From assembly GCA_020629005.1 (NCBI GenBank), contig JAHDEE010000037.1:1-39176 (forward strand): a DNA stretch of 39,176 nucleotides, written 5' to 3'. A program made the position numbers and the translations under genes. Each line of letters starts with the position of its first letter. Within the stretch, counting starts at the first letter, position 1. Positions 20,713 through 39,118 of this stretch are shown here, one piece after another. A model generated the notes under the pieces. That model ran no database searches. It had not been told where the DNA came from and worked only from the letters and a program-made list of their open reading frames with translations. This stretch comes from Chitinophagales bacterium. GTDB lineage: Bacteria > Bacteroidota > Bacteroidia > Chitinophagales > UBA2359.

Positions 20713-20882
20713 CTAGTGCCGGGTAAAGAAAGTATGTGACACCTGTGAGGAGCTTATCCTTTTGCCAGCCGAGGCGCGAAAAGGAAGAATAGCCATAGCT
20801 AGCTACATGGCTGAGGAGCATCAAAGGCTGGCAAAATTAGAAGCCAGTCAAACTGTTTAGAACTTTGTTTCCGGGGCACTAG
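20713..20882. repeat. MITE-like palindromic element, copy 1 (CTAGTGC...GCACTAG)
   Basis: The element begins CTAGTGCC and ends GGCACTAG. The outer ~21 bp are inverted repeats (left GGGTAAAGAAAGT, right read backwards CCGGAAACAAAGTT). Farther in, TTTTGCCAGCC pairs perfectly with GGCTGGCAAAA, and AGCCAT pairs with ATGGCT around AGCTAGCT, so the whole segment can fold into one long hairpin. Its first 60 nt match the copy at 38995 at about 50 of 60 positions. It starts 1 nt after the stop codon at 20709-20711. It has no coding capacity; if mobile it needs a transposase in trans. Confidence 0.8.
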
Positions 20883-21731
20883 AACAGATAAAGGCGCGGC
20901 CGAGTGCCCGATCAGAATAGCCCTGGGCGTAGCGGTACAAGCTGCCTGAATGCGCCAGTGACTGCCAGCAGATGCTGGCTCGGAGCTTGCCGTAGAGACA
21001 GCAGCTGCTGAGCAGGAACAAGCAGGCAGGTAGTGCGTACAAGCGGAGCACAGGTCAGCCGCTTGCGCGAAATACTTTGCTGCGCTCCAAAATAATCAGA
21101 AGCGCCACTCACAAATCGTCAAAGCAGAGGGGAAATAGCTGAAAATTTGTAGAAGTCTTACTACCTTTTTGCTTCATTTTAAGGGTAAAGCAGTTATTGT
21201 CAGTAGATTAGTTATTGCGCAGTGTGAAATCAGATTGTTTCTGCGCCTGCTACAGAAATAAAGACGCCTAACATAATTGTACAAAGGCGGGTCAAAACTA
21301 GTACAGTGTAGGCTTGCATTTGACCGGAATTTGCTGGCAAAACGTCGTTAAAATGACTGTCTGGTTTTGTCTTTTCCGATCTTTTTGCACAAGAAATGCA
21401 CTCTGTGTAAGAATTCGCGGATTTAGGGAATTCAATTCTATTGCTGTGTTCACAAGGACGCCAAAGAAATGGTCTTTTAGGTTCAAGAGGTTGATAATCA
21501 AGGTTTTGTGGGGCGTATTGGCTGAGTTTGACGGTTGGGCCTCAGATTTTGTTGTCTCAAGTCGGGCAGAAATCTGCTGGTTTTTTACTTCTTCCAGAGT
21601 CCGGCATGATTTTTTCACGCCAGATTGGTATGTTAATTGCATCACAGGGACTAGATGGACTGCATTTGGCTGAAATTGTTATGTCGTCCTTAAAGTGGCC
21701 TGATATGGGTCACTAACGTAAACGAATCATT
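20883..21731. other. Long spacer before the second giant adhesin, 849 bp
   Basis: The first ~220 bp are GC-rich and include a repeat segment; the remainder is more AT-rich. Open frames (+ 21314-21673, - 20857-21051) show atypical composition and no family resemblance and are not called. No clean intrinsic terminator or TAnnTTTG promoter was found. The length suggests a long leader or regulatory region for the gene at 21732, but that is inference. Confidence 0.5.
20977..21010 (-). repeat. Dispersed repeat segment, inverted relative to 16057-16087
   Basis: Read on +, 20977-21010 (GGCTCGGAGCTTGCCGTAGA...) aligns with the reverse complement of 16057-16087 (GGCTCGGAGCCTGCGGAGAG...) at about 26 of 31 positions, and weaker similarity continues for tens of bases on the CAGTGGC/CTCAGG side. 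The two copies lie on opposite sides of the 16413-20711 gene in opposite orientation. Identity is too short to define element ends. Confidence 0.45.
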
Positions 21732-24700
21732 ATGAACAACTCAACAACCCATAGTGTGACAAGCGCTCTACAAAAACGGGGGCTTGTGAAAGCTCTGTTT
21801 CTGTTTGTGCTACTGATCACCGTCGGCCTCAACAACTCGACGGCTCAGGATTGCATTGGTTTCGATATTCTTACTACTCCTTCAGTGGTCAATGAGAATT
21901 GTATCGATGGCTCTATCGAAGTAGTGGTGCAAAACGGTACCCCTCCCTATACGGTGAGCTTTTATCACATCGATCAGGACTTTCAGCTAAACTTGCCTAA
22001 TCAGTTTTTTGGAGATACCATTGTGCTAGACTTTCTCAGTCTTGGAAGCTATGAAGTAACCGTAACGGACTCTGAAGAGTGCACGATCACCTCTGATCCA
22101 CTCGTTGTAGGAGGGGAATGTCTTGTAGACCTTACCGGTCTCGCTTTTATGGACAGCAATGATAATGGCTTGCCAGATATGGGAGAAGAGCCGGTTGAGG
22201 GACTAATCGTGGTGTTGAATGATGATAATGACGATACTGTTGGTGTGTTTCCAACGGATGAAAATGGTCAGTTTACATTTAGCCAGGCTCCGGGAAGCTA
22301 CACTGTTTTGGTGCCTGAGACACTGGACGACGGGTCGCAGTTTAGTGGCAATCCAGCAGTGCCTTTGCAATTGAATGCGGGGCCACCGGTTTATGATTTT
22401 TATCTGCCCTATGTGCCTTATGTGCTACAGGCGGTAAATGATACGGTGTACATCGGGCCACAGGATACCGTCTCAATAGCTGTAATTGAAAATGATCTCG
22501 GTTCAAATCTCATTATTGATTTTTGGGTGCAGCCAGAGTTTGGCAGCATCGAACTTGTGCCAACCGGGGTCGAAATTGAGTATACTGCCTCGGAAGGATT
22601 TATTGGAGAAGATGCATTTACCTATACTGTGATTGACAACCTGGGAGGTATGTCGACCGGTACTGTTGTAGTATTTGTGTTGGAAGGCCCTTTGGCTGCT
22701 GACGACTCCTATGTAACCGAGGCTGGAGTTGATATACTAATGGAACCCATGCTGAATGATCAAGGCATCGGTATTACCATCTCAACCTTGAATCAGCCTA
22801 TTGCAGGTGGTACGGTTATTTGGGCTGACATTGAAGATAATCAGTTGATCTTTACGGTCGATGAGGGCTTTTCTGGCACTACACAATTCTCTTATGTGAT
22901 TGTCGATGCTGCAGGAAATACCAGTGAGGCGACTGTCACGATCGAAGTAGGTGAAGGACCTACTATACAGGCGGTTTTGGATTTTGCGGAAACGGGCATG
23001 GGGATGCCGGTGCAAATTGATGTTCTGGCGAACGACATAGGAGAGGGGCTTTCCATACAGTCCATTGCACAGCCCGTAGATAGTGGTTCTGTGGCATTTA
23101 ATGCGGATAGCACTGCTTTGATCTTCACGCCTGCAGATGGCTTTGAGGGAACTGCCACTTTTGAATATGTAATAGAAGATGAAAACGGCGAGGTTTCACT
23201 TGGTGGAGTTTCAGTACTTGTTGGTAATATTTCGATTCTGGGAATGGATGATGAGTACCAGATCAATGTTGGCGATAACGTGATCATGTCCGTTTTGGAG
23301 AATGATCTTGGAGAAGGTTTGGTGATCGCCGGTTTTTTGCCTCCTGCTGAAGGAGGCACGCTGACACAGTTGAATAATGGCCAGTTATTGCTGGAGCCTA
23401 CTGAAGGCTTTATTGGTGTGATTACCTTTAGCTATTCGATAATAAATGCAGATGGTGATATAGACAGTGCCGAAGTGACAGTGACTATTGTTGATGCTGC
23501 GATAGATGCTGAAGATGATGAGATCACCGTACAAGGAGGTACCATTGCTACGATAAATGTGCTGGATAATGATACAGGAGTAGGCCTTGCGATTACGAAT
23601 TTCACCCAGCCTTCCGATGGGACTGTTTCGGATAGTGGAGATGGTCAATCGCTCGTTTATGATCCTGGGCCAAGCTTCATAGGTACTACTTCTTTCATGT
23701 ACACGATCGTCGATGAGGATGGAAATAATAGCACTGCAACGGTATTGATCGATGTAGTTGCACCAGAGCTGACCTTACAGGATGACGAGTCACTGACAAG
23801 CGCAGGAGAAACGGTTCAAATCCCTGTTTTGTTAAATGACTTTGGCCAAGGCCTTACGATAACCGGATTTGCGCAACCTGTAAATGGCGGAATGGTGGTT
23901 TTTGGATCCGAAGATGGAGTGTTGGTCTTTATGGCTGACGAAGGCTTTGTGGGAAACGCGGTTTTCAGTTATGATGTGCAAGACCAGTTTGGCAGTGTAG
24001 CAACCGCCAACGTAGTGGTAACGGTTACTGATGAAGGCGGACTGCTGGCAGTTGATGATGATGAGATTCTTCAGTCAGGAGCCAATGGAGTATTTGACGT
24101 GTTGGCTAACGATTTTGGTGACAGTCCAATAGTGTCAGATTTTACCCAGCCTGTTTCAGGTGGTACTGTTGCCTTTGGTCCTGGTACTTCACTTCTGTTC
24201 ATACCTGAAGATGGATTTGCAGGGGTGGTAACCTTCACTTATACAATCACAGATTCAAGTGGAGAATTTTCTACGGCTACAGTAACGGTCAATGTCACGA
24301 TCAACCTTGCGATAGAAGCAGTAAACGACGTGGTTAGTACCGATCCTGGAACACCTATTGTCATCGATGTATTGGAAAATGATACGGGGGATGGTCTGGT
24401 GATTCTTACTTTCGGTCAGCCTAGTATTGGAGGCACTGTTGTTGAGGACCCAAATGGTGGTGGGTTGCTGTTCACTCCTTTTGAAGGCTTTATCGGATCG
24501 GTAAACTTTGGTTACTCGATCACTGATGGTCTTGGAAACGTGGACGATGGGCTTGTGACTGTCAATGTAGAGAACACAGGTAATCAACCACCATGTGAGG
24601 ACTCCCTGTTTTTCTGTACTGGTGTCTTGCAGCCATTTGATATGTGCTTTGAGAACTGCGATCCGGATGGAGATTCGATTTATATTGAGAGTGCCGTTTC

Positions 24701-27700
24701 TACCTTTAATTGCAGTGTAGATATTTTCAATGATACCTGTCTTACGTATGGACCTTTGCCTGGTTTCCAGGGAGTGGATTCTGTACTTGTGGTGATATGC
24801 GACAATCAGTTGCCACCAAACTGCAGCACCACTTTTGTGACTGTGGGTGTAGGAGAATGTGAAGATCCCGTTGCGAATGATGACTTCTACATCACGGCTT
24901 TTGGTACGCCGGTTGTAGTGGAATTCTTCCTGAATGATTCAGGTACCGGCATTACTTTGCTTGACTTTGAGCAACCAACAGGAGCAACAGTGACCGTTTC
25001 TGGTGACGACTTTATTGTAACACCTGATCCTGGTTTTTCCGGTGATATATTCTTTGACTATGTGATAACGGATATTTTTGGGACCACGGATGAAGCAACC
25101 GTTTTTGTAACGGTTCAGCCTTCCTTTGGTCCGATTGCACTTAACGATGAAGCGACAACGGATCAGGATGTGGGTATATCCATTCCTGTTTTAGAGAATG
25201 ATGAGGGATCGGGCTTGTCCATCACCAATGTCAACCAACCTGCTGAAGGTGGTTCTGTAGAGATCGCAGGAGAGGAGATTGTGTTTACTCCTGCACCCGG
25301 TTTTTCAGGAATTGTATCCTTTGAGTATGAGATAACTGATGATGCGGGTCTAACTGCTAACGCAACTGTAATTGTAGAAGTGCTCAGTAGCTGCGGAAAC
25401 ATTACCGAACTATGTACAGCCCCAGCTGTTCCACAGCAGCTGTGCTTTTCGTTCTGTGATATCGATGAGCCGGTTTCGATCGTCGATGCTTCGACGCTTT
25501 ATACCTGTAGCATTACCTATGACAGCGACACTTGTATCACTTATATCGCTTTGCCTGGAGCCGAAGGGCTTGCCGAAAACCTTCAGATTGTGGGTTGCAC
25601 TGCTGATGAGGCGATTTGTGATACCTTGAATGTCGCCATTATTGTGACTTGTACAGATCCGGTAGCACAGAATGACAATGCTACCACTGAGCCGGCAACC
25701 GAGGTGCAGATAGACGTTTTGGCAAATGATGAAAATCCTTGTAATAACGTTGAAGACCTGGAAGTCACTGTTACTAATGAGCCTGCAAACGGGCAGATTG
25801 TTGCACAAGACAACGGACTACTGACCTATCTTCCAAACCCTGGCTTCAGTGGGACAGATACCTTTACTTATGAAGCCTGTAATGATTGCAGCACGGCCAT
25901 CAGTGATGGATTATGTGATGATGCCATTGTGAGCGTCACTGTTTCTGATAATCCGACTGAGCTAACAGCTAATCCGGACAGTTATACAACAGAATTTGAA
26001 GAAAGTATTAATCTTCCAGTATTGTCAAATGATATTGGTGAAGGAATAAACATAACAGATAACACACAACCAGAAAATGGTACCCTGGTTTTGGAGGGAG
26101 TAGAGTTTGTTTATACTCCAAACCCCGATTTTGAAGGTACTGACTCCTTCACTTACACAATCACTGATGCCAATGGAGAAACTGCGGAGGCAACTGTGAC
26201 CATTGTGGTCAATGGACCCGCAGAGAATCAGCCACCTGTTGCCAATAGTGATATGGTTTCTACCGAAGGGCAATTTGTTGCGATTGAAGTGTTGGATAAT
26301 GATACTGATCCGGAAGATGGCGTGCTGATCATCACTGAATACACAACACCAGATGTAGGGACTTTGGAGCTATCAGCGGATAGTACTTTCTTTATATACA
26401 CTCCGGAGCCAGGCTTTGAAGGACTGGTGACCTATCAGTATACTGTTTGCGATGATGGTGAACCAGTGCTGTGTGATTCTGCAATTGTTGAAGTAGCAGT
26501 TGGTGTGCCGCCGAGCAACAACCCACCGATAGCCGTAAACGATACCACCGCTACGCAGGAAGGTGGCGCTCTTGTGATTGACGTATTGCTCAATGATAGT
26601 GATCCTGATGGCGATAACTTTAGCATCACAGATGTGGTGGAACCGGCGAACGGAACGATCGTAGTGGATGCGGAAAATGGTACGATCACCTACACTCCAG
26701 ATCCACTGTTTAGTGGTCAGGATACTTTCGTATATACTATTTGTGATGATGCTGATGTGCCATTGTGCAGTGATGCAGTAGTTGTGGTGGAGGTTGAAGC
26801 GATAGAACCGCCAATAGGTTTTGATGTGGAGGCAGATATCGTGTATACCAGCATTGACACACCTGTAGAAGTATTTGTATTAATTAATGACACCGGGGAA
26901 GGACTGTTTATCTCTGAGTTTAGTCAGGGAGAATTTGGATCTGTGCTTGCGAGCGGAAACGACGGAGCTCTGATTTACAACCCTGCACCTGGTTTTACCG
27001 GGCAGGATTACTTCTTCTACACTGCTTGTGATGAAGAGGGCGACTGTCAGGAGACTATTGTTGCCGTGACTGTATATCCAGCCGGTGAACCAAATCATGC
27101 CCCGGTTGCGAATGATGACCTCTATGAGGTTGATCCTGGTGCTTCAGCAAGTCTGGATGTTCTACTAAATGATCAAGATCCGGAAAATACTCCTTTAACA
27201 ATAACGGAAGTCAGTGAACCTACATTTGGAACAGTGACGATAAATGCCGAAGGTACGGGATTGGATTATGTGACGGCACCAGGCTTTACCGGAACCGATA
27301 CTTTCACCTATACCATTTGTGACGAAGGCACACCTCAGGAATGTAGCACAGCTACAGTCACTGTAGTGGTGGGAGTAGAGCTGCCAAATACCCCACCTAA
27401 TGCAGTAGATGACTTCCAAACTGTGGATCAAAATGTTGTGGTCACAATTGTGGTGACTGTCAATGATACCGATGCGGAAACTGCTAGTCAGGATTTGGAT
27501 GTTACCTTGCTCACACAGCCTCTGTTTGGAACTGCTGGAATCACTCCTGGTTCTAATGAGGTGACTTATATGCCTGATTTTAACTTTGTAGGAACAGACT
27601 ATTTCCTTTACGTTGCATGTGATGATGGAACGCCGGTACTCTGCGATACTGCCTATGTAGTCATCCAGGTCGGAGAAGTTGTTGAACCAAATGAAGACTT

Positions 27701-29141
27701 CATCCTACAACCGGACGTTGCCTATACCAACCTGACTGCTCAGGTAGAAATAGATGTATTGGCTAACGATTCGGGAGAAGATCTGGTAATCACTAACTTC
27801 TCAAATCCTTCACATGGAACAGTAATTTTTGGAGAGAATCCTGGCGACCTGGTATACATTCCAAATGGATCTTTTGTAGGAACAGATTATTTCATTTATA
27901 CCGCTTGTCAGCCTGATGGATCTTGCGAAAGCACCTTGGTCGCAGTGGTAGTATTGGATCAGGGCACCAATAATGTACCGCCGATTGCTGTTAACGACAC
28001 CTACATGACGGAAATGGATCAATCGATCAATTTTGACGTAATGGAAAATGATAGCGATCCTTTCGGTGGGGCTAACATCAGCATTTGTGATGTGTCTAGC
28101 CCACCAAATGGCTCCTTGATACAAGAGGCTGATGGTACCTTTACTTACTTCCCCAATGACGGCTTTATTGGAGAAGACTCCTTTAGTTACACGATTTGTG
28201 ACGATGGGGTTCCTCCGCTCAACTCCACTGCCGTAGTAACGATTACTGTGGGTACTGGCGGATTGTCAAATCAATTCCCTATTGCAACGGATGATTTCAT
28301 GTCTGGACAAACCAATGTGCCTATTAGCATCCCTGTACTGGAGAATGATATGGATCCGGATGGCGATGGCCTGACATTGATTCTGCTGACACCTCCTGGC
28401 AATGGAAATGCTGAAGTTTCTGAAGGCCAGATCGTATACACTTCTGACCTTGGATTCATCGGTACGGATTATCTGATGTACCAGATTTGTGATGATGGTA
28501 CTCCTGCACTTTATGATACTGCCTTTGTGACAATAGAGGTGATAGCGAATCAGACACCGGAAGTGATAGCGAACGATGACGCGGCCACATCAATAGAAAA
28601 CGTACCGGTCACTGTGCCGGTTTTGGGTAATGATTCCTGGCCTTTGGACAGTGCATTGGTCGTGACGATCTTCTCAGATCCGATCAGTGGAGGTATTGTT
28701 ACTGTCAATGGTGACAACACTATTCAGTATACTCCACCACTTGATTTTGTCGGAGAAGACAGCTTCCAGTATATACTATGTGCCGGATTGCTTTGCGATA
28801 CCGCTACGGTGATTATGACCGTACTACCAGAAGATGAGCCACCAGTGGAATGTGAGATAGAAATTCAAGGAGGATTTTCTCCAAACGATGATGGTATCAA
28901 CGATGGATTCCAGATTGAAGCATTGGACTGCTATCAGGAGCAAAACCCTGAACTGATCATCTTCAATCGTTGGGGATCGGAAGTATACAGGAAACAACCA
29001 ATGGCTGGCACTGATGTCTGGGATGGAACCTGGGACGTAAACGGTGAGCAACTGCCTGATGGAACTTATTACTATATATTGATTTTGAATGAAAATGATT
29101 CTGGAGAGAGCCTACAAGGCTTTGTCGAATTGCGAAGATAG
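21732..29141 (+). CDS. Giant Ig/cadherin-like repeat adhesin with type IX (type B) sorting domain
   Basis: 2469 residues with ATG at 21732. The signal peptide (KALFLFVLLITVGL, cut near STAQ, residue 39) is followed by a SprB-repeat-like segment (~40-127, GSYEVTVTDSEECTI), a B-like module (~128-228, GLAFMDSNDNGLPDMGEEP), then 21 Ig/cadherin-like repeats of 80-90 residues with a VLxNDxGxGL or VLxNDxDPDGD motif, interrupted by two cysteine-rich modules (about 24582-24864 and 25390-25653). Residues ~2379-2469 are a canonical CHU_C/gliding-motility C-terminal domain: GGFSPNDDGINDGF, IIFNRWGSEVY, WDGTWD, LPDGTYYYIL, final ELRR. In this phylum that domain directs export through the type IX system. 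Genes for two PorP/SprF proteins follow 214 nt downstream, fitting a cargo/partner arrangement like sprB-sprF. Surface adhesin role is inferred. Confidence 0.93.
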   Translation: MNNSTTHSVTSALQKRGLVKALFLFVLLITVGLNNSTAQDCIGFDILTTPSVVNENCIDGSIEVVVQNGTPPYTVSFYHIDQDFQLNLPNQFFGDTIVLDFLSLGSYEVTVTDSEECTITSDPLVVGGECLVDLTGLAFMDSNDNGLPDMGEEPVEGLIVVLNDDNDDTVGVFPTDENGQFTFSQAPGSYTVLVPETLDDGSQFSGNPAVPLQLNAGPPVYDFYLPYVPYVLQAVNDTVYIGPQDTVSIAVIENDLGSNLIIDFWVQPEFGSIELVPTGVEIEYTASEGFIGEDAFTYTVIDNLGGMSTGTVVVFVLEGPLAADDSYVTEAGVDILMEPMLNDQGIGITISTLNQPIAGGTVIWADIEDNQLIFTVDEGFSGTTQFSYVIVDAAGNTSEATVTIEVGEGPTIQAVLDFAETGMGMPVQIDVLANDIGEGLSIQSIAQPVDSGSVAFNADSTALIFTPADGFEGTATFEYVIEDENGEVSLGGVSVLVGNISILGMDDEYQINVGDNVIMSVLENDLGEGLVIAGFLPPAEGGTLTQLNNGQLLLEPTEGFIGVITFSYSIINADGDIDSAEVTVTIVDAAIDAEDDEITVQGGTIATINVLDNDTGVGLAITNFTQPSDGTVSDSGDGQSLVYDPGPSFIGTTSFMYTIVDEDGNNSTATVLIDVVAPELTLQDDESLTSAGETVQIPVLLNDFGQGLTITGFAQPVNGGMVVFGSEDGVLVFMADEGFVGNAVFSYDVQDQFGSVATANVVVTVTDEGGLLAVDDDEILQSGANGVFDVLANDFGDSPIVSDFTQPVSGGTVAFGPGTSLLFIPEDGFAGVVTFTYTITDSSGEFSTATVTVNVTINLAIEAVNDVVSTDPGTPIVIDVLENDTGDGLVILTFGQPSIGGTVVEDPNGGGLLFTPFEGFIGSVNFGYSITDGLGNVDDGLVTVNVENTGNQPPCEDSLFFCTGVLQPFDMCFENCDPDGDSIYIESAVSTFNCSVDIFNDTCLTYGPLPGFQGVDSVLVVICDNQLPPNCSTTFVTVGVGECEDPVANDDFYITAFGTPVVVEFFLNDSGTGITLLDFEQPTGATVTVSGDDFIVTPDPGFSGDIFFDYVITDIFGTTDEATVFVTVQPSFGPIALNDEATTDQDVGISIPVLENDEGSGLSITNVNQPAEGGSVEIAGEEIVFTPAPGFSGIVSFEYEITDDAGLTANATVIVEVLSSCGNITELCTAPAVPQQLCFSFCDIDEPVSIVDASTLYTCSITYDSDTCITYIALPGAEGLAENLQIVGCTADEAICDTLNVAIIVTCTDPVAQNDNATTEPATEVQIDVLANDENPCNNVEDLEVTVTNEPANGQIVAQDNGLLTYLPNPGFSGTDTFTYEACNDCSTAISDGLCDDAIVSVTVSDNPTELTANPDSYTTEFEESINLPVLSNDIGEGINITDNTQPENGTLVLEGVEFVYTPNPDFEGTDSFTYTITDANGETAEATVTIVVNGPAENQPPVANSDMVSTEGQFVAIEVLDNDTDPEDGVLIITEYTTPDVGTLELSADSTFFIYTPEPGFEGLVTYQYTVCDDGEPVLCDSAIVEVAVGVPPSNNPPIAVNDTTATQEGGALVIDVLLNDSDPDGDNFSITDVVEPANGTIVVDAENGTITYTPDPLFSGQDTFVYTICDDADVPLCSDAVVVVEVEAIEPPIGFDVEADIVYTSIDTPVEVFVLINDTGEGLFISEFSQGEFGSVLASGNDGALIYNPAPGFTGQDYFFYTACDEEGDCQETIVAVTVYPAGEPNHAPVANDDLYEVDPGASASLDVLLNDQDPENTPLTITEVSEPTFGTVTINAEGTGLDYVTAPGFTGTDTFTYTICDEGTPQECSTATVTVVVGVELPNTPPNAVDDFQTVDQNVVVTIVVTVNDTDAETASQDLDVTLLTQPLFGTAGITPGSNEVTYMPDFNFVGTDYFLYVACDDGTPVLCDTAYVVIQVGEVVEPNEDFILQPDVAYTNLTAQVEIDVLANDSGEDLVITNFSNPSHGTVIFGENPGDLVYIPNGSFVGTDYFIYTACQPDGSCESTLVAVVVLDQGTNNVPPIAVNDTYMTEMDQSINFDVMENDSDPFGGANISICDVSSPPNGSLIQEADGTFTYFPNDGFIGEDSFSYTICDDGVPPLNSTAVVTITVGTGGLSNQFPIATDDFMSGQTNVPISIPVLENDMDPDGDGLTLILLTPPGNGNAEVSEGQIVYTSDLGFIGTDYLMYQICDDGTPALYDTAFVTIEVIANQTPEVIANDDAATSIENVPVTVPVLGNDSWPLDSALVVTIFSDPISGGIVTVNGDNTIQYTPPLDFVGEDSFQYILCAGLLCDTATVIMTVLPEDEPPVECEIEIQGGFSPNDDGINDGFQIEALDCYQEQNPELIIFNRWGSEVYRKQPMAGTDVWDGTWDVNGEQLPDGTYYYILILNENDSGESLQGFVELRR
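22425..28835 (+). repeat. 21 Ig/cadherin-like coding repeats plus two cysteine-rich modules
   Basis: Each unit follows (A)NDD...VxVLENDxGxGLxIxxFxQPxxG...GFxGxxxFxYxIxDxxGxxxxATVxVxV. Early repeats (22425-24580) carry the short NDxGEGL form; later ones (from about 26230) alternate with the longer NDTDPxDG form and an added TxCDDGxP segment. Unlike the array in the first giant gene, these repeats lack the paired terminal cysteines. Unit DNA sequences are well diverged, so this is an old array. Confidence 0.85.
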
Positions 29142-30318: not shown

Positions 30319-30341
30319 GGTACAAGAAAATAGCTTTCTGA

Positions 30342-30458: not shown

Positions 30459-30465
30459 GTACCTT

Positions 30466-31392
30466 ATGAGAAATGCAGTAACCTATTTGTCCCTGTTTGT
30501 CACGCTTTGGTTGGCGGTAAATATCCTATCAAGTGACAAGGCTATGGCCCAGCAAGAGGCCCATTATACACAGTATATGTTCAATGGGTTGGTGCTAAAC
30601 CCTGCCTATGCCGGCAGCAGAGACGTTATGAGTGCTGTTGCTTTCTATCGCCATCAGTGGCAAGGAATCGACAAAGCGCCTCGTACGGTTTCTCTTAGCT
30701 TGCACGGCGCCGCCAGCGAAAAGGTAGGCCTGGGCATCCACATGGAGAATGATCGCCTCGGTGTGCACAATCGTTTCAATCTTCATGGTAGCTATGCCTA
30801 CCGCTTCCGACTGGGCTACGGACAGATGTCTCTGGGACTAAGAGCTGGCTTTCACAATTACAATTCTAGATGGACGGAGACCCAATTGCAGGATCCTGAT
30901 GACCAGGTCTTTCATACAAACGAAAACAAACTGCTTCCAAACTTTGGTTTTGGGGCATTCTACTTCACCAATCAGTTATTTATCGGTGTTTCCGTACCGA
31001 AGATTTTGGAGCAGGATATCAGTATAACCAAAGTAGCAAAAGAACGCAGGCACTACTTTCTTACAGCAGGCCTATTGATTCCGATGGGCGTAAATCTGGA
31101 CTTGCGACCGTCGATGATGATGAAGGCTGTTCCGGGAGATGCGCCAATTAGTACGGATATCAACCTTAGCCTGCTGATACAGCGAGCCCTCTCACTTGGT
31201 GTCTCTTACCGAATCAAGGACAGCTGGGATTTTCTCGTGGAGTACCAGCTCAACCATCATCTCAGGTTGGGATATAGCTACGATCTCACTGCCACAGAGC
31301 TCAGGCACGAAAACTCAGGTAGCCACGAGATCATGTTGGGCTATGATTTTTCCTTTGACCGCGAACGCATCATTTCGCCACGACATTTCTAG
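30466..31392 (+). CDS. PorP/SprF family type IX secretion outer-membrane protein, second paralogue
   Basis: 308 residues from ATG at 30466; an in-frame TTG three codons upstream (30457) is a less likely start because it lies in the inverted repeat. Signal peptide 1-28 (SLFVTLWLAVNILSSDKAMA). The mature protein begins QQEAHYTQYMFNGLVLNPAY and continues FYRHQWQGIDKAP, GSYAYRF, GVSVPKILEQD, LRLGYSYDLTATEL and GSHEIMLGYDF, the same plan as the preceding paralogue. Predicted outer-membrane beta-barrel partner for a type IX cargo. It is separated from its paralogue by a terminator but is only 3 nt from rsmE, so the two are probably co-transcribed. Confidence 0.94.
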   Translation: MRNAVTYLSLFVTLWLAVNILSSDKAMAQQEAHYTQYMFNGLVLNPAYAGSRDVMSAVAFYRHQWQGIDKAPRTVSLSLHGAASEKVGLGIHMENDRLGVHNRFNLHGSYAYRFRLGYGQMSLGLRAGFHNYNSRWTETQLQDPDDQVFHTNENKLLPNFGFGAFYFTNQLFIGVSVPKILEQDISITKVAKERRHYFLTAGLLIPMGVNLDLRPSMMMKAVPGDAPISTDINLSLLIQRALSLGVSYRIKDSWDFLVEYQLNHHLRLGYSYDLTATELRHENSGSHEIMLGYDFSFDRERIISPRHF

Positions 31393-31395
31393 CAG

Positions 31396-32106
31396 ATGCA
31401 ACTGTTTTATGAGCCTGCTTTGCTTGAGGGCACCACTCAGCTCAATGAGGTGGAGGCGCATCACTGCATTCACGTACTACGCAAAAAGCCAGGAGACAAA
31501 ATCCACATTGTAGATGGAAAGGGCGGATTGTACGAGGTGGCCATTACCGAAATTCAGGGCCGCAAACGGTGTCATTTTGAGGTGTTGAGCAAACAAGAAG
31601 AGGTTGGCATTCCTCCCTATGAGCTACACTTAGCGATCGCACCCACCAAGAATATCAGCCGCATCGAGTGGTTGCTCGAGAAAGCGACGGAGCTTGGTAT
31701 CTCCGAAATCACTCCCTTCATAGCGCAACATTCCGAACGCAAAGCGGTGAAACAGGAGCGGCTCAACAAGATTCTCATTACTGCAATGAAGCAGAGTCTG
31801 CGAGCCAGTCTTCCAAAACTAAACGAAGCAAGAAGTCTCCAGCAATTCCTGAAAGAGCAGGCAAGTAATCAAGACCAAAAGTACATCGCGCACTTGCATC
31901 CGGATCATGAGCACCTATCTGCTCACTATGACGGTTCGCCGATGTTGGTAATGGTAGGCCCTGAAGGTGATTTTTCGGAGCAGGAAATCGAAGCGGCAAA
32001 GACCGCTGGCTTCAAGGGTATTTCGCTGGGGTCTTCTCGTCTACGTACCGAAACTGCCGGAATGTTGGTAGTGGCTTTTTGTAATTTGTATTGCATATCT
32101 GGGTAG
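31396..32106 (+). CDS. rsmE: 16S rRNA (uracil1498-N3)-methyltransferase RsmE
   Basis: 236 residues, normal family length. RsmE uses S-adenosylmethionine to methylate N3 of U1498 in 16S rRNA in the cytoplasm. The N-terminal ~70 residues form the PUA-like RNA-binding domain (HHCIHVLRKKPGD). The SPOUT methyltransferase part includes IAPTKNISRIEWLLEKATELGI (82-103), ITAMKQSLRA (128-137), VGPEGDFSEQE (187-197) and the knot motif LGSSRLRTETAG (211-222). The usual GPEGGF reads GPEGDF here. The ATG is 3 nt after the preceding stop. Confidence 0.96.
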   Translation: MQLFYEPALLEGTTQLNEVEAHHCIHVLRKKPGDKIHIVDGKGGLYEVAITEIQGRKRCHFEVLSKQEEVGIPPYELHLAIAPTKNISRIEWLLEKATELGISEITPFIAQHSERKAVKQERLNKILITAMKQSLRASLPKLNEARSLQQFLKEQASNQDQKYIAHLHPDHEHLSAHYDGSPMLVMVGPEGDFSEQEIEAAKTAGFKGISLGSSRLRTETAGMLVVAFCNLYCISG

Positions 32107-32192
32107 TGTAGGCTTAAGGGGGATGCGAATTTTGCCATTACAGATCATGATTGCGTCCAGATCGTTAATGAAAATTGGTAACTTTACAGTAG

Positions 32193-32909
32193 ATGAATCG
32201 ATTGTCTACTAAGAAGTATGAAACCGCTATTGGCCAAGCCGTCCAAAGGTTTTGGTCAATTCGGAAAGCTCAAAAGACTAGTTTCGAAAAAAAGCAGGAC
32301 GTAGGAAACCGGGGAGCAGTTACGGGCGGAAGACACCTGGATGGTTTCCTTGACGTTCTTGTACAAGTCTCGGTAGATATCGGAGTACCCAGAAACTGTC
32401 TCTTTTTGAAAGGAAACACGCTACCTGGGTACTTTAGACCAACCAAGAACTGGGATTTTCTTGTTATGACTCCCCGCAAGGAACTCATTGCAGCTGTAGA
32501 ACTTAAATCTCAAGTTGGATCATTTGGAAATAACTTTAACAACCGTTCAGAAGAGGCTATCGGGAGTGCTGTCGATTTTTGGACCGCTTTTAGGGAGAAT
32601 GGGTTCAATACTTTTAGGCCCCCTTGGGTTGGTTATATGTTTCTTGTTGAAAAGTCGGCAAAATCTACTTCATTAGTGCGAATTGCCGAACCCCACTTTG
32701 ATGTCCGGAATGAGTTCAAAGAATCAAGCTATCTCGATCGATACAGATTATTGTGCCAGAAATTAATGTTGGAAAAGCATTATACGTCCACCGCTGTTCT
32801 CTGGACGAATGAAATAGCAGAATTTGGCAGCCTTGAAGAATCGATTTCGATTCAGTCTTTCCTGCTGTCATTGATGGGCCATTTGCAAAGCAAATCTAAT
32901 TTATTTTGA
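32193..32909 (+). CDS. PaeR7I/XhoI-family type II restriction endonuclease
   Basis: 238 residues with ATG at 32193. It matches the XhoI/PaeR7I family (Pfam XhoI), which cuts CTCGAG: the NWDFLVM strand (D88), VELKSQVGSFGNNFNNR (102-118) and EEAIGSAVDFWTAFRE (120-135) are the family signature. D88, E103 and K105 fit a PD-(D/E)XK catalytic site. The methyltransferase gene follows after 2 nt. Specificity for CTCGAG is inferred from the family. The gene is intact and somewhat more AT-rich than its neighbours, consistent with a transferred cassette. An 86-nt spacer separates it from rsmE. Confidence 0.9.
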   Translation: MNRLSTKKYETAIGQAVQRFWSIRKAQKTSFEKKQDVGNRGAVTGGRHLDGFLDVLVQVSVDIGVPRNCLFLKGNTLPGYFRPTKNWDFLVMTPRKELIAAVELKSQVGSFGNNFNNRSEEAIGSAVDFWTAFRENGFNTFRPPWVGYMFLVEKSAKSTSLVRIAEPHFDVRNEFKESSYLDRYRLLCQKLMLEKHYTSTAVLWTNEIAEFGSLEESISIQSFLLSLMGHLQSKSNLF

Positions 32910-32911
32910 TC

Positions 32912-34510
32912 ATGCGGTATGGAGAAAGAACTAGCGGCGGTGTACATGGAACGGTTGTGACAAGGATTGAGGTAGTCCGGAAAATGCTGGATCTATGTAA
33001 TTACCGATCTCAGGAAAATCTCGAAGGAATTCGTGTTATAGAACCAGCCGCGGGAGAAGGTGCGTTTGCAATTGAGATAGTAAAGAGACTCAGAGAGTCA
33101 TCGGAGAATCATGGTTTCTGTTTCGAAAAGTCTTTAGAGAACTTGGTTTTTTGCGAAATTGAGAAGGAAAACATTCACGTTTTGCGAGCAAAAGTTGCTT
33201 TGAGTCTTGGTGTTGATTTTTCCAGCTTACCGCTCAGTATGTTCATTTGCGGAGATTTCCTAACCAGTGATTTTGCAAAATGCGACATTGTAATTGGTAA
33301 TCCTCCCTATGTCAGACATGAGAAAATCCCAGAAGCAAGTAGGACTTTATACAAAAGATACTTCAAGACTTTTACTCACCGTTCAGACCTCTATATTCCT
33401 TTCTTCGAGAAGGGCTTGGGGCTACTCAAGCAAACTGGACAGATGGTCTATATTTGCTCAAATCGCTGGATGAAGAGCCAATACGGAGTGAATCTTCGAA
33501 CGCTCATCGCTAGTCAATATCACTTGAAGTATATCATAGATTTGGAAGACGTAGATGCATTTGAGGAGTCTGTTTTGGCATATGCTGCGATCACCTCAAT
33601 AAGTGCTTCAGAGAATCCGGAGAAAAGCAGTTTCTACAAATTGCGTTCGCTAAGCGATCTAATAAACTTTAGTCTCGAACAGCCCCCCTCCCAGCGTCTT
33701 AATTTGACTACAAAAAATTGGTTTGCAATTGAGTATGCAGATATAGGCATTGCACGAAAACTGACTTCAATCGTGGAGCAAGGCTTTAAGATCGGGATTG
33801 GCGTTGCAACTGGGAGAGATGGTGTTTTTATTGGTAAGCACTTAATCAATGAGGTGGAATCAGAATTGCTATTGCCAATTATTACTTCCAAAGGATTGGC
33901 AGCAGACAAGATTGAGTGGCAAGGAAAGTACTTATTGAATCCCTTTGCACCAAACGGTACTCTGATCGACTTGCAGGAATATCCAAAAGCCAGTCAGTAT
34001 TTAAGAAAGCATTTTGCATCACTTTCTTCAAGACATGTTGCTAAGAAAAACCCAAAGAACTGGTTTCGTACGATCGATCGAATTTATCCTGAATTGCACA
34101 AGAGACACAAAATTTTACTGCCTGACATAACGGGCAGACGGTTTTTGCATATCGATCAGGGAAATTTTTATCCTCATCACAATCTCTACTATATTTCTGG
34201 GAGAGATACACTTTCGCTGGAAGTGTTGGCAGCTATTCTGATGTCGGATTTTGTTCGAGCTCAATTGATTCATGTAGGAAATGTTATGAATGGAGGGTAC
34301 CCTCGTTGGCAGAGCCAAAATATTCGAAAGCTTAGGATTCCGTATTTGGATGCGATCACAGACAGTGACAAGACCAAGTTGGTCCTTGCCTACCGAAAGA
34401 ATTCATTGTCAGAAATAAATGAAATTATCAACGCGGAGCGAATAATTGAATTTGTAAGAACTGAAGGTCAACTGCGACTATTTGACCCGCCTGCTGATTA
34501 TGATCAGTAG
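32912..34510 (+). CDS. Type II N6-adenine DNA methyltransferase (PaeR7I/XhoI-type)
   Basis: 532 residues from ATG at 32912, 2 nt after the endonuclease stop; an upstream TTG at 32906 would overlap it. The SAM-binding motif EPAAGEGAF is at 44-52, an acidic CEIE at 81-84, and the catalytic NPPY at 130-133, the signature of gamma-class N6-adenine methyltransferases. The C-terminal half (ISGRDTLSLEVLAAILMSD, NGGYPRWQSQNIRKLRIP) resembles TaqI-like target-recognition domains. It should protect the host by methylating the adenine of the endonuclease target, presumably CTCGAG. Tight coupling with the nuclease gene indicates co-expression; no controller gene is visible. Confidence 0.92.
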   Translation: MRYGERTSGGVHGTVVTRIEVVRKMLDLCNYRSQENLEGIRVIEPAAGEGAFAIEIVKRLRESSENHGFCFEKSLENLVFCEIEKENIHVLRAKVALSLGVDFSSLPLSMFICGDFLTSDFAKCDIVIGNPPYVRHEKIPEASRTLYKRYFKTFTHRSDLYIPFFEKGLGLLKQTGQMVYICSNRWMKSQYGVNLRTLIASQYHLKYIIDLEDVDAFEESVLAYAAITSISASENPEKSSFYKLRSLSDLINFSLEQPPSQRLNLTTKNWFAIEYADIGIARKLTSIVEQGFKIGIGVATGRDGVFIGKHLINEVESELLLPIITSKGLAADKIEWQGKYLLNPFAPNGTLIDLQEYPKASQYLRKHFASLSSRHVAKKNPKNWFRTIDRIYPELHKRHKILLPDITGRRFLHIDQGNFYPHHNLYYISGRDTLSLEVLAAILMSDFVRAQLIHVGNVMNGGYPRWQSQNIRKLRIPYLDAITDSDKTKLVLAYRKNSLSEINEIINAERIIEFVRTEGQLRLFDPPADYDQ

Positions 34511-34660
34511 GACGAGCGCAAAGTCATGCACAGTTTGAATAAGATTGTCTTGTATCAGCGAAGACCCCGTGAAGCAGCATAGCCATAGCTGCATTGCTGA
34601 AAAACATCTAAGGATGATAGAAATAGATGGCTGTCAAATTATTCAGTTGCCGTACCAAAA
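34511..34660. repeat. Diverged copy of the palindromic element (copy 2)
   Basis: The right half (about 34573-34650) aligns with copy 1: the 12-mer ATAGCCATAGCT, then GCTGA, CATC, AAGG and a GGCTGTCAAA-like end. TGATAGAAATAGA matches TGACAGAAATAGA of copy 3. The left half is poorly matched and the CTAGTGC/GCACTAG tips are absent. It fills the gap between the methyltransferase stop (34510) and the stop of the convergent membrane-protein gene (34664). Boundaries are approximate. Confidence 0.5.
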
Positions 34661-34663
34661 TAA

Positions 34664-35140
34664 CTAACCCTTGGCAAGCCCACTAATCGCCTGCAATAGC
34701 TGCTCTTGCTGCGCGGTGCCAACATACACGAATCGTTTGGTATTCTTTCGGCCAATCTTGACTGCTGAACCGAATTTGGCATTATAAATCCAGCCATCGC
34801 GTGCGAGTCGGATGCCAATTCCATAGTACCAGGGAACATTTGTAGCGACTGCTTGCTTTGTTTGTAAAGCGGATATTGGGTATCGCTTTTTGATGATCCC
34901 CCACATGCCGTAACTAATTCGAAGTTCATCTTTGTTTATAGTGGTTTCCATTTTGTAAAACAATACAATTGGTAAGATGATGAACGCTGCCATTAACGAC
35001 AATAGCCAGAGATTTAGCGGCTCTTTGGTCGCCATTGTAATTCTGAAGAATAGCAACCCCAGCACGATGATTGGTACGATAAACAGCACTAAAGAAAAGT
35101 ACTGTTTTTCGTAATAAATAAGCTCTTTTTTGCTTTCCAT
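34664..35140 (-). CDS. Small two-helix membrane protein with PH-like C-terminal part
   Basis: 158 residues from ATG at 35140 (MESKKELIYY); a TTG further upstream (35176) is less likely. Two hydrophobic helices lie at about 15-33 (FSLVLFIVPIIVLGLLFF) and 43-62 (LNLWLLSLMAAFIILPIVLF). The soluble part that follows (ELRISYGMWGIIKKRYPIS, YYGIGIRLARDGWIYNAKFG, KRFVYVGTAQQEQLLQAI) looks like the bacterial PH-domain-like proteins common in Bacteroidota. Function is unknown. It lies downstream of MurF-Alr on the same strand after a 225-nt gap and converges with the methyltransferase gene. Confidence 0.8.
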   Translation of the reverse strand: MESKKELIYYEKQYFSLVLFIVPIIVLGLLFFRITMATKEPLNLWLLSLMAAFIILPIVLFYKMETTINKDELRISYGMWGIIKKRYPISALQTKQAVATNVPWYYGIGIRLARDGWIYNAKFGSAVKIGRKNTKRFVYVGTAQQEQLLQAISGLAKG

Positions 35141-35365
35141 GACTACGTGTTTTTGGGCCCGAATTACTGCCGCCAACAGCTGGAATTCAACTTACGATCA
35201 GATTGGTGATAACTGCAGAACTTCCATACGCTGAGAATTCCACTGCGCTAGTGCCAGCTTAACAAATTAGTGTCTCGACTGTGCGATTTAGTTCCGGGCT
35301 AATGAACCATTGCTTGTTTTGCTTCTGTGCGAACGTAGAAGAGGTGCTTCTCTAGAATCTCCGCT

Positions 35366-37852
35366 CTATTCAATGTAAAACACCCTCTTGACACGTTGCG
35401 AAATGCTGGTCATCAACTCGTATGCAATGGTGTTTGCCCAGGATGCCACTTGCTCCACACTAGGTGTCTCTCCAAATAGCAATACTTCGTCTCCTGGAGC
35501 AACCCCAGGTATATCGCTTACATCGACCATGCACATATCCATACAAATGTTGCCGATAGTAGGGGCTAGTTGACCTCGGATGAGCACGGAGGCTTTGCCA
35601 TCGCTAAGCGATCGGAAATATCCATCCGCATAACCGATGGCAATGGTGGCAATAATTCTCGGTTCATTGCCCGTCTGTCCTACACGACCATAGCCTATGC
35701 TGCTGTGTGCAGGTACAGTTTTGACCTGAGAGACAAATGACTTGAGGCTTGCAACAGTTTGTAATTCCTGTTGCAATTTGTTTGAAGGGTCAACACCATA
35801 TAGCCCGATGCCGAGCCGCACCATATCAAAATGAGCTTCAGGGAAATTGACAACACCAGTGGAATTGAGAATGTGTCTAAGCGGAGCAATTTGAAGTTGC
35901 TTGTTGATTGTGTTGCAGAGTGACTTGAAGGTCTCGATTTGTTGCAGTGAATAAGCTTTGCCGTTTGGGGTGTCGCTTACCGAAAGATGAGACATCAGGG
36001 ATTTTATCTCAAGGGAGTCATTGGCTTTGCGGCAAGTTTCGATCAGTTCCCGTATGTCCTTACTGCCAAAACCCAATCGATTCATTCCAGTCTCAAGTTT
36101 AATGTGAATGGGGTAGGGCAGGGGCACCTGCGATCTTTGTAGTGCCTTTAGGAATTGATCTAGTTGTTCAATGTTGAATATTTCAGGTTCCAATTGATTT
36201 TGAACCATTATCTCAAAACTGCCCGGATAAGAGTTCATCACCATTATCGGCAGTTGTATGCCTGCTTTTCTGATCTGCACACCCTCATCCGGGTAGGCGA
36301 CTGCCAGGTAGTCGGCTTTGTGGTAGCTCAGTGTTTTTGCCACTTCTGTGCTACCACTTCCGTAGGCTGCTGATTTGACCATCGCCATTACTTTCACATG
36401 CTTGTCTAGCAAAGAACGATAGATCCGTAGATTGTGCGCAATGGCATTGAGATTGATCTCTAGTCGTGTCTGATGAGCTTTCAGGGAAAGCTTGTTTACG
36501 ATTTGCTCAAAATGAAATTTTCGAGCTCCTTTGAAGAGAATTGTGGCATGACTCCAGAGGGACAAATCATGTTGAGCCAAGAAATCCTTGCTCCGCTCGT
36601 AGCTCTTGCTTTGAAAATGGTGCGTCAGAGCTGGAGCCAAATGCAGGGCAGATTCAGGTCCGATTGTGACAACCTCAGTGAGACTTCTTGCTTTGAGTAA
36701 TTCAGCAACTTCGGAGTACAACTCCGGCTTCGCACGGCCTGTCTGCAAAAGATCTGATAGGACCACAATCTTATCCTGACTCTGCTGCTGTTGATCTAGA
36801 AAATCTAATGCAATTCGGAGCGACTGCAGATCGGAATTGTAGGCATCGTTGATGAGCTGGCAGGAGTTGATACCTTGCTTCATTTCCAGGCGCATAGCTA
36901 CCGGTTCCAGACTTCGAAGTCGATTTTGGATTTGCTGATGGGATAGTCCATATTCAAGTAGAAAGACTACACAGCAGCACAGGTTTTCGATAGACGCTTG
37001 ATCGGTAAAGGGAATATCGAAATGTATGCTTGTTTCGGAAGCGTGATGGCGCATTTGCAACTTAGTGCTGTTGCCAGTAGCCTTTAGAGCGATCAATTGA
37101 TAGTCAGAAAGCTTGGAACTGCCCCAGGAGATGGCTTTGCTGTCTCTACTCATGCTCAAAATGGCTGTACTGAGCTCGGGATAATCATTGGGGTATACAA
37201 ACCATTTGCAGCCCTGAAACAGTTGCAGTTTTTCTTTTGCCTTCTGCAGTCGATTGTCGAAACCCTCATCATGAGCGCTGCCGAGGTTGGTGATGATTCC
37301 GTAATCGCACTTTAGCATTTTGGCTAATTGCTTCATTTCGTTAGGCAGGGAGATGCCGGCCTCAAATATTCCCAGGCTATGATGCGATCTCATTTCAAGC
37401 AGCGAGAGCGGCACGCCAATCTGTGAGTTATAGCTTTTCGGCGAACGTACAATCACATGATCCTGCCACAGCATTTGAAACAGCCATTCTTTGACAATGG
37501 TCTTTCCATTGCTGCCGGTGATTGCAATCACCGGATAGCGAAATTGTTGTCTTTGCGAGGCTGCAATTTGCTGCAATGCCTGTATGCTGTCCGGTACTTG
37601 TAGCACATTGGCTTCGGGAGTTGAGCTGAGATTAATTGGTGTTTGGACTATGAAGTTTCGAAACCCCTTTAGGTACAGTTCTTTGATGTACTGATGTCCA
37701 TCGTGCTGCCTTCCCCTTATGGCAAAAAATAAAGCTTTGCTATGTTCCCGTCTTTGCCGACTGTCAAGCAGGAAATGCTGTATACCGGGATTGGAGACTT
37801 GCTGCAAGAAGCGAGCACTGGTCAGTGATGCAATTTGGTTTAGCTGCAACAT
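35366..37852 (-). CDS. murF-alr: Bifunctional MurF ligase / alanine racemase
   Basis: 828 residues with ATG at 37852. The N-terminal ~455 residues are MurF, which adds D-Ala-D-Ala to UDP-MurNAc-tripeptide using ATP: DSR (30-32), the ATP loop TGSNGKT (112-118), SYNSQIGVPLSLLEM (139-153), EAGIS (164-168), and NDAYNSD (335-341). The C-terminal part (~460-828) is a fold-III PLP alanine racemase: RLEINLNAIAHNL, catalytic K493 in MVKSAAYGSG, SIGYGRVG with catalytic Y721, GYADGY (740-745) and CMDMCMVDVSD (770-780). Such a fusion is standard in Bacteroidota and links D-alanine supply to its use in peptidoglycan synthesis in the cytoplasm. It lies 54 nt downstream of the Rieske gene, probably in one transcript. 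Confidence 0.96.
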   Translation of the reverse strand: MLQLNQIASLTSARFLQQVSNPGIQHFLLDSRQRREHSKALFFAIRGRQHDGHQYIKELYLKGFRNFIVQTPINLSSTPEANVLQVPDSIQALQQIAASQRQQFRYPVIAITGSNGKTIVKEWLFQMLWQDHVIVRSPKSYNSQIGVPLSLLEMRSHHSLGIFEAGISLPNEMKQLAKMLKCDYGIITNLGSAHDEGFDNRLQKAKEKLQLFQGCKWFVYPNDYPELSTAILSMSRDSKAISWGSSKLSDYQLIALKATGNSTKLQMRHHASETSIHFDIPFTDQASIENLCCCVVFLLEYGLSHQQIQNRLRSLEPVAMRLEMKQGINSCQLINDAYNSDLQSLRIALDFLDQQQQSQDKIVVLSDLLQTGRAKPELYSEVAELLKARSLTEVVTIGPESALHLAPALTHHFQSKSYERSKDFLAQHDLSLWSHATILFKGARKFHFEQIVNKLSLKAHQTRLEINLNAIAHNLRIYRSLLDKHVKVMAMVKSAAYGSGSTEVAKTLSYHKADYLAVAYPDEGVQIRKAGIQLPIMVMNSYPGSFEIMVQNQLEPEIFNIEQLDQFLKALQRSQVPLPYPIHIKLETGMNRLGFGSKDIRELIETCRKANDSLEIKSLMSHLSVSDTPNGKAYSLQQIETFKSLCNTINKQLQIAPLRHILNSTGVVNFPEAHFDMVRLGIGLYGVDPSNKLQQELQTVASLKSFVSQVKTVPAHSSIGYGRVGQTGNEPRIIATIAIGYADGYFRSLSDGKASVLIRGQLAPTIGNICMDMCMVDVSDIPGVAPGDEVLLFGETPSVEQVASWANTIAYELMTSISQRVKRVFYIE

Positions 37853-37906
37853 TTGGTCTCTATTGTCAATTCGGGTTAATTGCCTAAGATTGAGAAAAAC
37901 GCAAAA

Positions 37907-38248
37907 CTACCAGAAATCCCACCATTTTTGTTCCGGCCATTCAATGTACAGCCCATTTGCTCGTTGTTCAACTGCGTATCGTTGAATGTTGTAACCTTCT
38001 CCGCTTATGTTCTTGCCGGTACAGACATCAAATTCATAGCGATGCCAGGGGCATACAATTGCGCCTTGTTCTGTGCACCAGCCGCCATCTAAAGGACCGC
38101 CGGCATGCGGACATTTGGCAGGTAGGGCATGGAATTGGTCCTTAAATCGAACTACGACAAGGTCTTTCCCTTTGACCAGTGTTCTCTTTATTTGTCCGTT
38201 TTGCCATTGAGAGACTGGTGGCATACCAGGGATTTTGAGCCAGGGCAT
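37907..38248 (-). CDS. Rieske [2Fe-2S] ferredoxin
   Basis: 113 residues with ATG at 38248. The cluster ligands are visible: C46-x-H48 in CPHAGGPL and C66-x-x-H69 in CPWHRYEF, the Rieske pattern with spacing typical of soluble ferredoxin components such as those of nitrite reductase small subunits and dioxygenases. There is no signal peptide or membrane segment, so it is cytoplasmic. It is likely an electron carrier; its partner is not in the window. It is upstream of murF-alr on the same strand and divergent from the 38316 gene. Confidence 0.93.
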   Translation of the reverse strand: MPWLKIPGMPPVSQWQNGQIKRTLVKGKDLVVVRFKDQFHALPAKCPHAGGPLDGGWCTEQGAIVCPWHRYEFDVCTGKNISGEGYNIQRYAVEQRANGLYIEWPEQKWWDFW

Positions 38249-38259
38249 TGGGAATTGAT

Positions 38260-38308
38260 TTGCAGTGAACTATTGTGTCTCGGATACTTTATCTTAGTAA
38301 CAAGATAA
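38260..38308 (+). promoter_or_regulatory. Palindromic operator-like site in the divergent spacer
   Basis: TTATCTT (38289-38295) and AAGATAA (38302-38308) form a perfect 7-bp inverted repeat with a 6-nt loop, 7 nt before the ATG at 38316. It overlaps a weak -7-like box TACTTTAT (38285-38292), preceded after 22 nt by TTG (38260-38262). The arrangement could be a repressor site shared by both divergent genes, or an mRNA hairpin over the ribosome site. Only the palindrome is certain. Confidence 0.4.
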
Positions 38309-38315
38309 GGATAAC

Positions 38316-38903
38316 ATGGATTTGAAGGCTTTCTTTAAAAATGTTTTTGAGCAGCAGGAAAAGGCCAATGTGCCTGTAGTACAAGAGATTATTGAGAGAG
38401 ATGACTACTTTCTGACTTCGTACAACAACTGGAAGAGCAGAAAAGCTTATCTGGAGTGGAATGAGACCTTATTTAGAGAAATGAATGCATTTCGCGATCG
38501 TGGTGAAAAACATCGTGATATTTGGTTCATGAATTCCGGCGCAACTGCTGCCTTGCTGTGGAAGCGGAGTGGTCAAGGAGTGCTGTTTTATTTCGACTAT
38601 CTTAAAGAGCGAGTCTTGAGCCTGGGCTATCGTTCTTACATGAGTGATCGTAAGTCTTACGTTCGGAAAGGCTACGCGGAGTATATTGAGCGGCATTACC
38701 TGAAACCAAAACTGCATTTTCAGCAAGGTGCTACCAAGGTTGAGCAGCTGTACGGTAATATTACAATTGAATGCATCAAGCACAATGACGAGGTGCAACA
38801 GTTGAAGTTTATGTGCACCAATTATCGCGATCACAATTATTCTGAGGCATTGGATTTTTACGATCTAATGGAGCGAGTCTTAGAGCAAGGAGATCTTGCC
38901 TGA
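38316..38903 (+). CDS. Unrecognised 195-residue soluble protein
   Basis: ATG at 38316, ending at TGA 38901-38903. The protein has no signal peptide or membrane segment, is rich in charged and aromatic residues, and contains WNETLFREMNAFRDRGEKH, GVLFYFDYLKERVLSLGYRSYMSDRK and EALDFYDLMERVLEQ. Composition and codon use look like a real cytoplasmic protein. No family was recognised and no cysteine or metal motif stands out. It is transcribed away from the Rieske gene; a weak CTGAG/CTCAG hairpin with a short T-run (38900-38932) overlaps its stop. Confidence 0.8.
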   Translation: MDLKAFFKNVFEQQEKANVPVVQEIIERDDYFLTSYNNWKSRKAYLEWNETLFREMNAFRDRGEKHRDIWFMNSGATAALLWKRSGQGVLFYFDYLKERVLSLGYRSYMSDRKSYVRKGYAEYIERHYLKPKLHFQQGATKVEQLYGNITIECIKHNDEVQQLKFMCTNYRDHNYSEALDFYDLMERVLEQGDLA

Positions 38904-38994
38904 GTTCGGGACAAACCTCAGATTGGATTTTTCTTATTGAACATCCTTTTGATGGTGTATCAACCACGGATTTGTATACTGCATCCTGAAATCC

Positions 38995-39118
38995 CTAGTG
39001 CTGCGTAAACAAAGTTCGTGACACCTTTTAGGAGCTTATCTTTTTGTCAGACGAGCAACGAAATATGACAGAAATAGAAGCCTTAAAGGTGGTGCGAATT
39101 TCGTTTGCGTAGCACTAG
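38995..39118. repeat. MITE-like palindromic element, copy 3 (best preserved tips)
   Basis: The element begins CTAGTGCTGCGTAAACAAAG and ends GTTTGCGTAGCACTAG. The outer 31 nt on each side are inverted repeats at 24 of 31 positions, and four of the seven differences would still give G-U pairs in a rightward transcript. The inner AGGAGCTTATCTTTTTGTCA pairs imperfectly with TGACAGAAATAGAAGCCT, so all 124 nt can fold into one hairpin. The left 60 nt match copy 1 at about 50 of 60 positions. Confidence 0.82.

Follow-up and report, generated by a model that had tools for sequence, protein, structure and literature searches.

Mobile hairpins of about 160 bases that share a core across several bacterial phyla: an apparently new family

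The 39,176-nucleotide stretch analysed here (contig JAHDEE010000037.1 of a Chitinophagales bacterium, assembly GCA_020629005.1; hereafter the window) carries genes that include those of the type IX secretion proteins PorP/SprF, which assign the genome to Bacteroidota, together with three copies of a palindromic, non-coding element, W1, W2 and W3. They are members of what is apparently a new and large family of mobile hairpins of about 160 bases, spread over several bacterial phyla. The copies and their motifs are as follows; E-values here and below come from covariance models with a shortened calibration and are rough.

20713-20882, + strand: palindrome W1, a 162-nt element (20717-20878) between CTAG at 20713-20716 and CTAG at 20879-20882
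20784-20814, + strand: apical motif of W1, GGAAGAATAGCCATAGCTAGCTACATGGCTGA, 4 nt longer than in other copies (alignment A1, below)
34527-34646, + strand: W3, a decayed relative, tips lost and core kept (E 1.8e-9 against model R1, built without W3)
38995-39118, + strand: palindrome W2, of the short class, CTAG on both sides, apical motif absent

W1 and W2 carry the tips CTAGTGC and GCACTAG and fold end to end as RNA (W1 at -58.8 kcal/mol, z -3.1; W2 at -60.2 kcal/mol, z -9.8), as the initial annotation had claimed. It had also placed their difference in length mainly at the loop, which is only partly right: the short class (124/125 bp) is the 166-bp class minus 41 apical bp, lost by a deletion between two GACGAG repeats. 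Other short copies in the genome are 94-98% identical to W2. Scored with the family's covariance model, W1, which is among the model's own 29 sequences, reached E 1.6e-21, and W2, which lies outside the model, 1.2e-15. The diverged copy suspected at about 34511-34660 is a real relative, and the apical motif GCATAGCCATAGCTGC is recognisable in that region, as GAAGCAGCATAGCCATAGCTGCATTGCTGA at 34571-34600 in W3; its own fold, however, is gone (z -0.23, not significant for the region by itself). W1 starts one base past the stop codon of an open reading frame (ORF; 16413-20711) and W3 lies just 3' of the stop of a methylase ORF (32906-34510). This methylase, of Eco57I type, follows an XhoI-type restriction endonuclease (both within 32193-34510), and W3 begins right past its stop. 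Immediately downstream of W1, at 20890-21100, lies a separate dispersed repeat of about 200 bp (ATAGCCCTGATCGAAGTGGAAATGA ... GCTCGGAGCTTGCCGTAGAGAC), partly palindromic by appearance, which is also found in the flanks of L013, L014, L030, L031, L105, L108, L110 and L112, near many copies of the element.

The family extends beyond the window. In the window's own genome, a pattern of the element's ends gave 118 forward and 108 reverse matches (226), compared with 5 and 10 (15) for the reversed control; a chance origin is therefore excluded and the genome holds more than 100 copies. BLAST separates them into two size classes, of 125 bp and 166 bp. Many contigs start or stop 52-54 nt into an element, and because contigs break inside it the count of copies is a minimum, and repeated partners could have dropped out of the assembly. 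The element is also abundant in G001, the sole other species of the genus examined.

The palindromes are copies of a mobile element that inserts at precise sites with short target duplications. Flanks are unique to each copy, and three empty sites could be compared with occupied ones: L207 lies within a repeat that has nine unoccupied copies, L182 (in genome G003) corresponds to L042, which has one CTAG, and L146 (in G005) corresponds to L150, with AAT duplicated by the insertion (3 bp). Most CTAG-type copies lie between two CTAGs, and tandem copies have a single CTAG in common; as CTAG is palindromic, such flanks alone cannot give the length of the duplication. Four copies, however, have the same 4-mer other than CTAG on both sides, namely CCTG (L202), CTCG (L165), TTAG (L192) and GTAG (L211). 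Read from the flanks, 3-bp duplications surround type-D copies in 8 of 10 cases, and copies with other tip types show TTAC, GTAA, AAT, ACT, TTA or TAA around elements of 159-161 bp, and also ATT and TTT. The length of the duplication thus varies by tip type (CTAG or other 4-mers for some, 3-mers for others), while the distance between duplications is 158-162 bp in nearly all lineages measured. Insertion without duplication, of the IS200/IS605 kind, was hinted at by L207, where CAAG on the left comes from the target and CTAG stands on the right. We rejected it as the usual mode, since tips vary to about the same extent on the left and on the right and the same 4-mer, other than CTAG, stands on both sides of several copies. 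The initial description of the palindromes as non-coding, without a nearby transposase and similar to miniature inverted-repeat transposable elements (MITEs) agrees with these empty sites, the target duplications and the high copy number.

Two further kinds of repeat were noticed. The host of L207 is one of at least nine genome copies of an imperfect palindrome of about 136 bp (TTATTTTTCTCCACCAGCCAACAAGGATGCTGTCAAAAAATGCC...), found in the L207 flanks, at L124:1174-1309, L029:1158-1293 and L102:4627-4762, and elsewhere. Extreme short derivatives of 33 and 67 bp, apparently products of internal deletion, consist of tips only (L092:2848-2880, L088 near 2885, G000:C65:2398-2464).

Each hairpin is layered into tips of about 20 nt, complementary arms and an apical core. 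The core, AGGCG..CATAGC..GCTAYG..GAG..CAACG, is nearly unchanged, whereas arms and tips differ completely between lineages. It is laid out as AGGCG, a bulged stem, a short internal loop, the hairpin CATAGC-N2-4-GCTAYG and CAACG. The tips (CTAGTGC, CTAGTGGCTC, AGACTTG, GTAGTTAG, TATAGTC and others) are matched to the kind of target duplication. The window's genus has at least three arm types (A, C and E), with others (B and D) in genomes G003, G005 and G017, and some copies are chimeric, with the left arm of one type joined to the right arm of another. The chimeras L186, L187, L057 and L067, whose right arm or part of an arm is of another type, are natural arm-mismatch mutants. In alignment A1 (MAFFT, sequence-based; 29 copies of five arm types, W1 included), 35 of the 43 pairs have changes on both sides and 91.9% of cells are paired, with a covariation of 0.678, which shuffling lowers to 0.240 and sliding to 0.195 or less. 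A cross-phylum alignment of 40 cores gave 0.666, compared with 0.175 shuffled and at most 0.201 slid. Compensatory evolution keeps the hairpin while the arm sequence drifts or is exchanged.

BLAST matched only the apex in other genera of the family; what it matched turned out to be hairpins built on the same plan with different arms. The covariance model found members in 17 of 60 relatives. These new members are hairpins of 157-161 nt, a few of them shorter, with unrelated tips and with either CATAGC..GCTAYG or the compensated form TACC..GGTA at the apex. A species-level genome collection holds 90 stretches with the core CATAGCCNNAGCTACGGCGAGG, most of which fold into long hairpins. Their main sources are Saprospiraceae and other Bacteroidota (Phaeodactylibacter xiamenensis, P. 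luteus, Lewinella, Tangfeifania), and some are from Gemmatimonadota, Martelella and metagenome-assembled genomes (MAGs) of Chlorobiota and Deltaproteobacteria, although single MAGs may reflect binning error. The core is also present, with different arms, on complete plasmids of Martelella, Mitsuaria, Diaphorobacter, Cupriavidus, Comamonas and Variovorax, where, apart from one marginal overlap, no annotated feature lies beneath it; the pseudomonadotal carriers include Alpha- and Betaproteobacteria. The core had no matches in E. coli, phages or viral contigs, and the strict form of the motif was not found in 394 other genomes of the phylum. Rfam 15 covariance models gave no relevant match, whether to the window or to members of the family from Bacteroidota, Gemmatimonadota and Pseudomonadota. 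The literature, of which our search had partial coverage, contained neither the core strings nor anything on MITEs in Saprospiraceae, and an earlier description may exist.

We oriented each element by its apical motif and call the strand so defined the motif strand. All 107 copies of the first types have it as the more stable strand, as do 41 of the 46 arm lineages (binomial p 4e-8); these lineages (arms less than 68% alike, aligned with G-U and A-C scored equally) are not fully independent. The initial annotation had seen G-U-compatible mismatches between arms in one copy as a hint that the RNA fold may matter; the larger set supports this far better than the single copy could. Over the 46 lineages, mismatches are indeed far from random, with compensatory changes and with G-U at 154 compared with 48 for A-C (binomial p 4e-14); G-U is in excess in 37 lineages and A-C in 3. 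A strand-specific mutation bias does not simply account for this, because the unpaired centre shows no matching bias. Since G-U far outnumbers A-C and the motif strand is the more stable one in most lineages, one defined strand is selected to fold, as RNA or still possibly as single-stranded DNA. In this the family differs from MITEs with inverted repeats that function solely as duplex DNA.

The same evidence makes it quite improbable that the elements are ordinary MITEs, that is, internally deleted DNA transposons whose inverted repeats are transposase ends and whose folded strand has no role. Target duplications, inverted ends, high copy number and the absence of coding would all fit, as would the continued spread of the short class, which has no core. 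But transposase ends should be the conserved part, and here the centre is conserved across phyla and the ends are not; complementarity is maintained over the whole arm; and double-stranded ends cannot distinguish strands, so that they would not yield a one-strand excess of G-U in 37 lineages compared with 3. Strand-specific folding could also be expected of cis-acting transcript signals, terminators or stabilisers of mRNA dispersed by recombination, and W1 and W3 do place stable hairpins beside stop codons. That explanation is hardly credible, however, as the elements have no orientation bias relative to neighbouring genes and insert precisely with target duplications, and a terminator needs neither 160 nt nor a conserved core.

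A transposase gene with CTAGTGC ends, suggested as a check by the initial annotation, was searched for and none was found. In the window's species, a partner insertion sequence (IS) would be recognised by the ends CTAGTGCTGCGTAAACAAAG. Tips paired 0.4-4 kb apart occurred, in all DNA examined, only as two neighbouring copies in L309 and one chance pair. IS630-type (DDE_3) genes are absent from this genome (G000) and from its congener G001, with one fragment in G003, in assemblies where no contigs below about 3 kb were seen. Loci of IS4/IS5-type transposases (DDE_Tnp_1) were found without these ends. IS200/IS605-type genes are present in the genome, but CTAGTGC is absent from the loci of Y1 transposases, and other repeats flank L110 and L112. 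These two hold RAYT-type (REP-associated tyrosine transposase) Y1 genes, at L110:1365-1913 and L112:1396-1941, each surrounded by a separate array of short repeats (CGGCGCGACGGGGACGTCACGCCGGG and CATTCTTCAATTTCATTGGAGAATTAACTATGATAAGTAAACGTGTGTCTAG). At nine annotated plasmid loci no recombinase consistently accompanied the elements. On a Cupriavidus plasmid (L336:2476-3502), an IS481-family element has inserted precisely at the CTA tip of a hairpin that bears the core. We considered this IS481, next to the copy in Cupriavidus pRK1-5, as a partner and rejected it: its inverted repeats stop at the CTA tip, and it appears to have used the hairpin tip as a target.

We consider it probable that the elements form a non-autonomous, MITE-like superfamily, moved in trans by transposases that act on exchangeable tips and carrying a structured core that would work as RNA or as folded single-stranded DNA. 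A transposase encoded elsewhere would recognise the current tips, and the hairpin would spread by borrowing whichever transposase fits them. Recombination between copies, of which the chimeras are examples, could provide the core with new tips and hence with new transposases. The motif strand may act as RNA, transcribed from or through the element, with a core that is probably bound by protein or processed as a stem-loop; that core may work in trans, or help the genome to tolerate the element. The 3-4 bp target duplications suggest that the transposase is of DDE type and works on duplex DNA, and the fold must therefore serve another step. For this reason we prefer RNA over single-stranded DNA, and, judging from the sequences, the motif strand is most likely under selection for its shape as RNA. 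More tentatively, the family could be a cross-phylum lineage of mobile structured RNAs, in which one core rides on exchangeable transposon-like ends and compensatory evolution keeps the 160-nt hairpin.

It is also conceivable, but unlikely, that the motif strand is extruded or exposed in replication and handled as a DNA hairpin, as in REP/RAYT systems (REP, repetitive extragenic palindromic) or in attC sites and the integron integrase. Such substrates are expected to fold strand-specifically, G-T pairs are tolerated in DNA hairpins, the internal loops of the core are conserved and IS200/IS605-type genes occur in the genome. HUH transposases of the IS200/IS605 type, however, are not known to make 3-4 bp target duplications, the RAYT-type genes found have other repeats as flanks, and the plasmid loci have no consistent recombinase companion.

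Several observations weigh against the explanation that we favour. Neither the family search nor tip pairing found an autonomous partner, although a repeated IS could be missing where contigs break in the element. The 125-bp class still has about ten near-identical dispersed copies without the conserved core, and since this class was amplified, movement does not require the core in cis. Strand bias alone is no proof of RNA, as single-stranded DNA tolerates G-T pairs too. Finally, the elements have no preferred orientation relative to neighbouring genes, so that read-through transcription of the motif strand is not guaranteed; regular transcription from neighbouring genes was rejected on the same grounds.

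Bacterial MITEs are usually seen as transposase ends plus filler; here the filler is the conserved part, strand-specific and cross-phylum. If the proposed explanation is correct, small mobile repeats are able to harbour a structured RNA (or DNA hairpin) that is old and under selection; in the more tentative reading above, the core RNA lineage would be a parasite, or an RNA that regulates transposition, and would have a protein partner of its own. The core motif, the covariance model, isolates such as Phaeodactylibacter xiamenensis and plasmid-bearing Cupriavidus offer handles for finding that partner. In practical terms, many contigs of this draft genome begin or end within these repeats.

Among known systems, ERIC/IRU of Enterobacteria (127 bp) and Correia elements of Neisseria are small intergenic palindromic mobile repeats that form stable hairpins in transcripts, and Correia transcripts are cut by RNase III (PMC10969869). 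The present elements resemble both in being small, palindromic, mobile, non-coding and dispersed between genes, with a stable transcript hairpin. Those two are not known outside their own bacterial groups, whereas the present family has a core common to several phyla with arms and tips replaced, and its duplication length differs by tip type. In the REP/RAYT GTAG/CGTC families, the RAYT studied acts on single-stranded hairpins (PMC3733652). Palindromes, a conserved tetranucleotide at the foot, high copy number and a single-strand fold are common to both, but REPs are 20-40 bp long, with a one-sided tetranucleotide, no target duplication and a companion RAYT. The likeness to REPs proposed in the initial annotation does not amount to membership: the elements are about 160 bp long, marked by CTAG at both ends and flanked by 3-4 bp duplications, and each of the two RAYT-type genes that we examined in this genome is accompanied by other repeats. 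Integron attC sites likewise combine variable palindromic arms, conserved structural features and strand-specific folding; the tips here read otherwise than RYYYAAC/GTTRRRY, which speaks against membership, and the elements have target duplications and no integrase found beside them. Nor do they match a known RNA family in Rfam 15. IS630- and IS5-mobilised MITEs share the inverted ends, the target preferences (TA/CTAG/YTAR-like or 3-bp) and the putative movement in trans. They differ in that the present genome and its congener have no DDE_3 gene and the DDE_Tnp_1 loci lack these ends, and the absence of DDE_3 leads us to reject membership among IS630-mobilised MITEs, with the missing short contigs as a caveat; the long strand-biased fold and the conserved core are further differences. 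The elements thus have the size, copy number, inverted repeats and target duplications of MITEs, combined with compensatory changes and a strand-specific tolerance of G-U that suggest a functional RNA.

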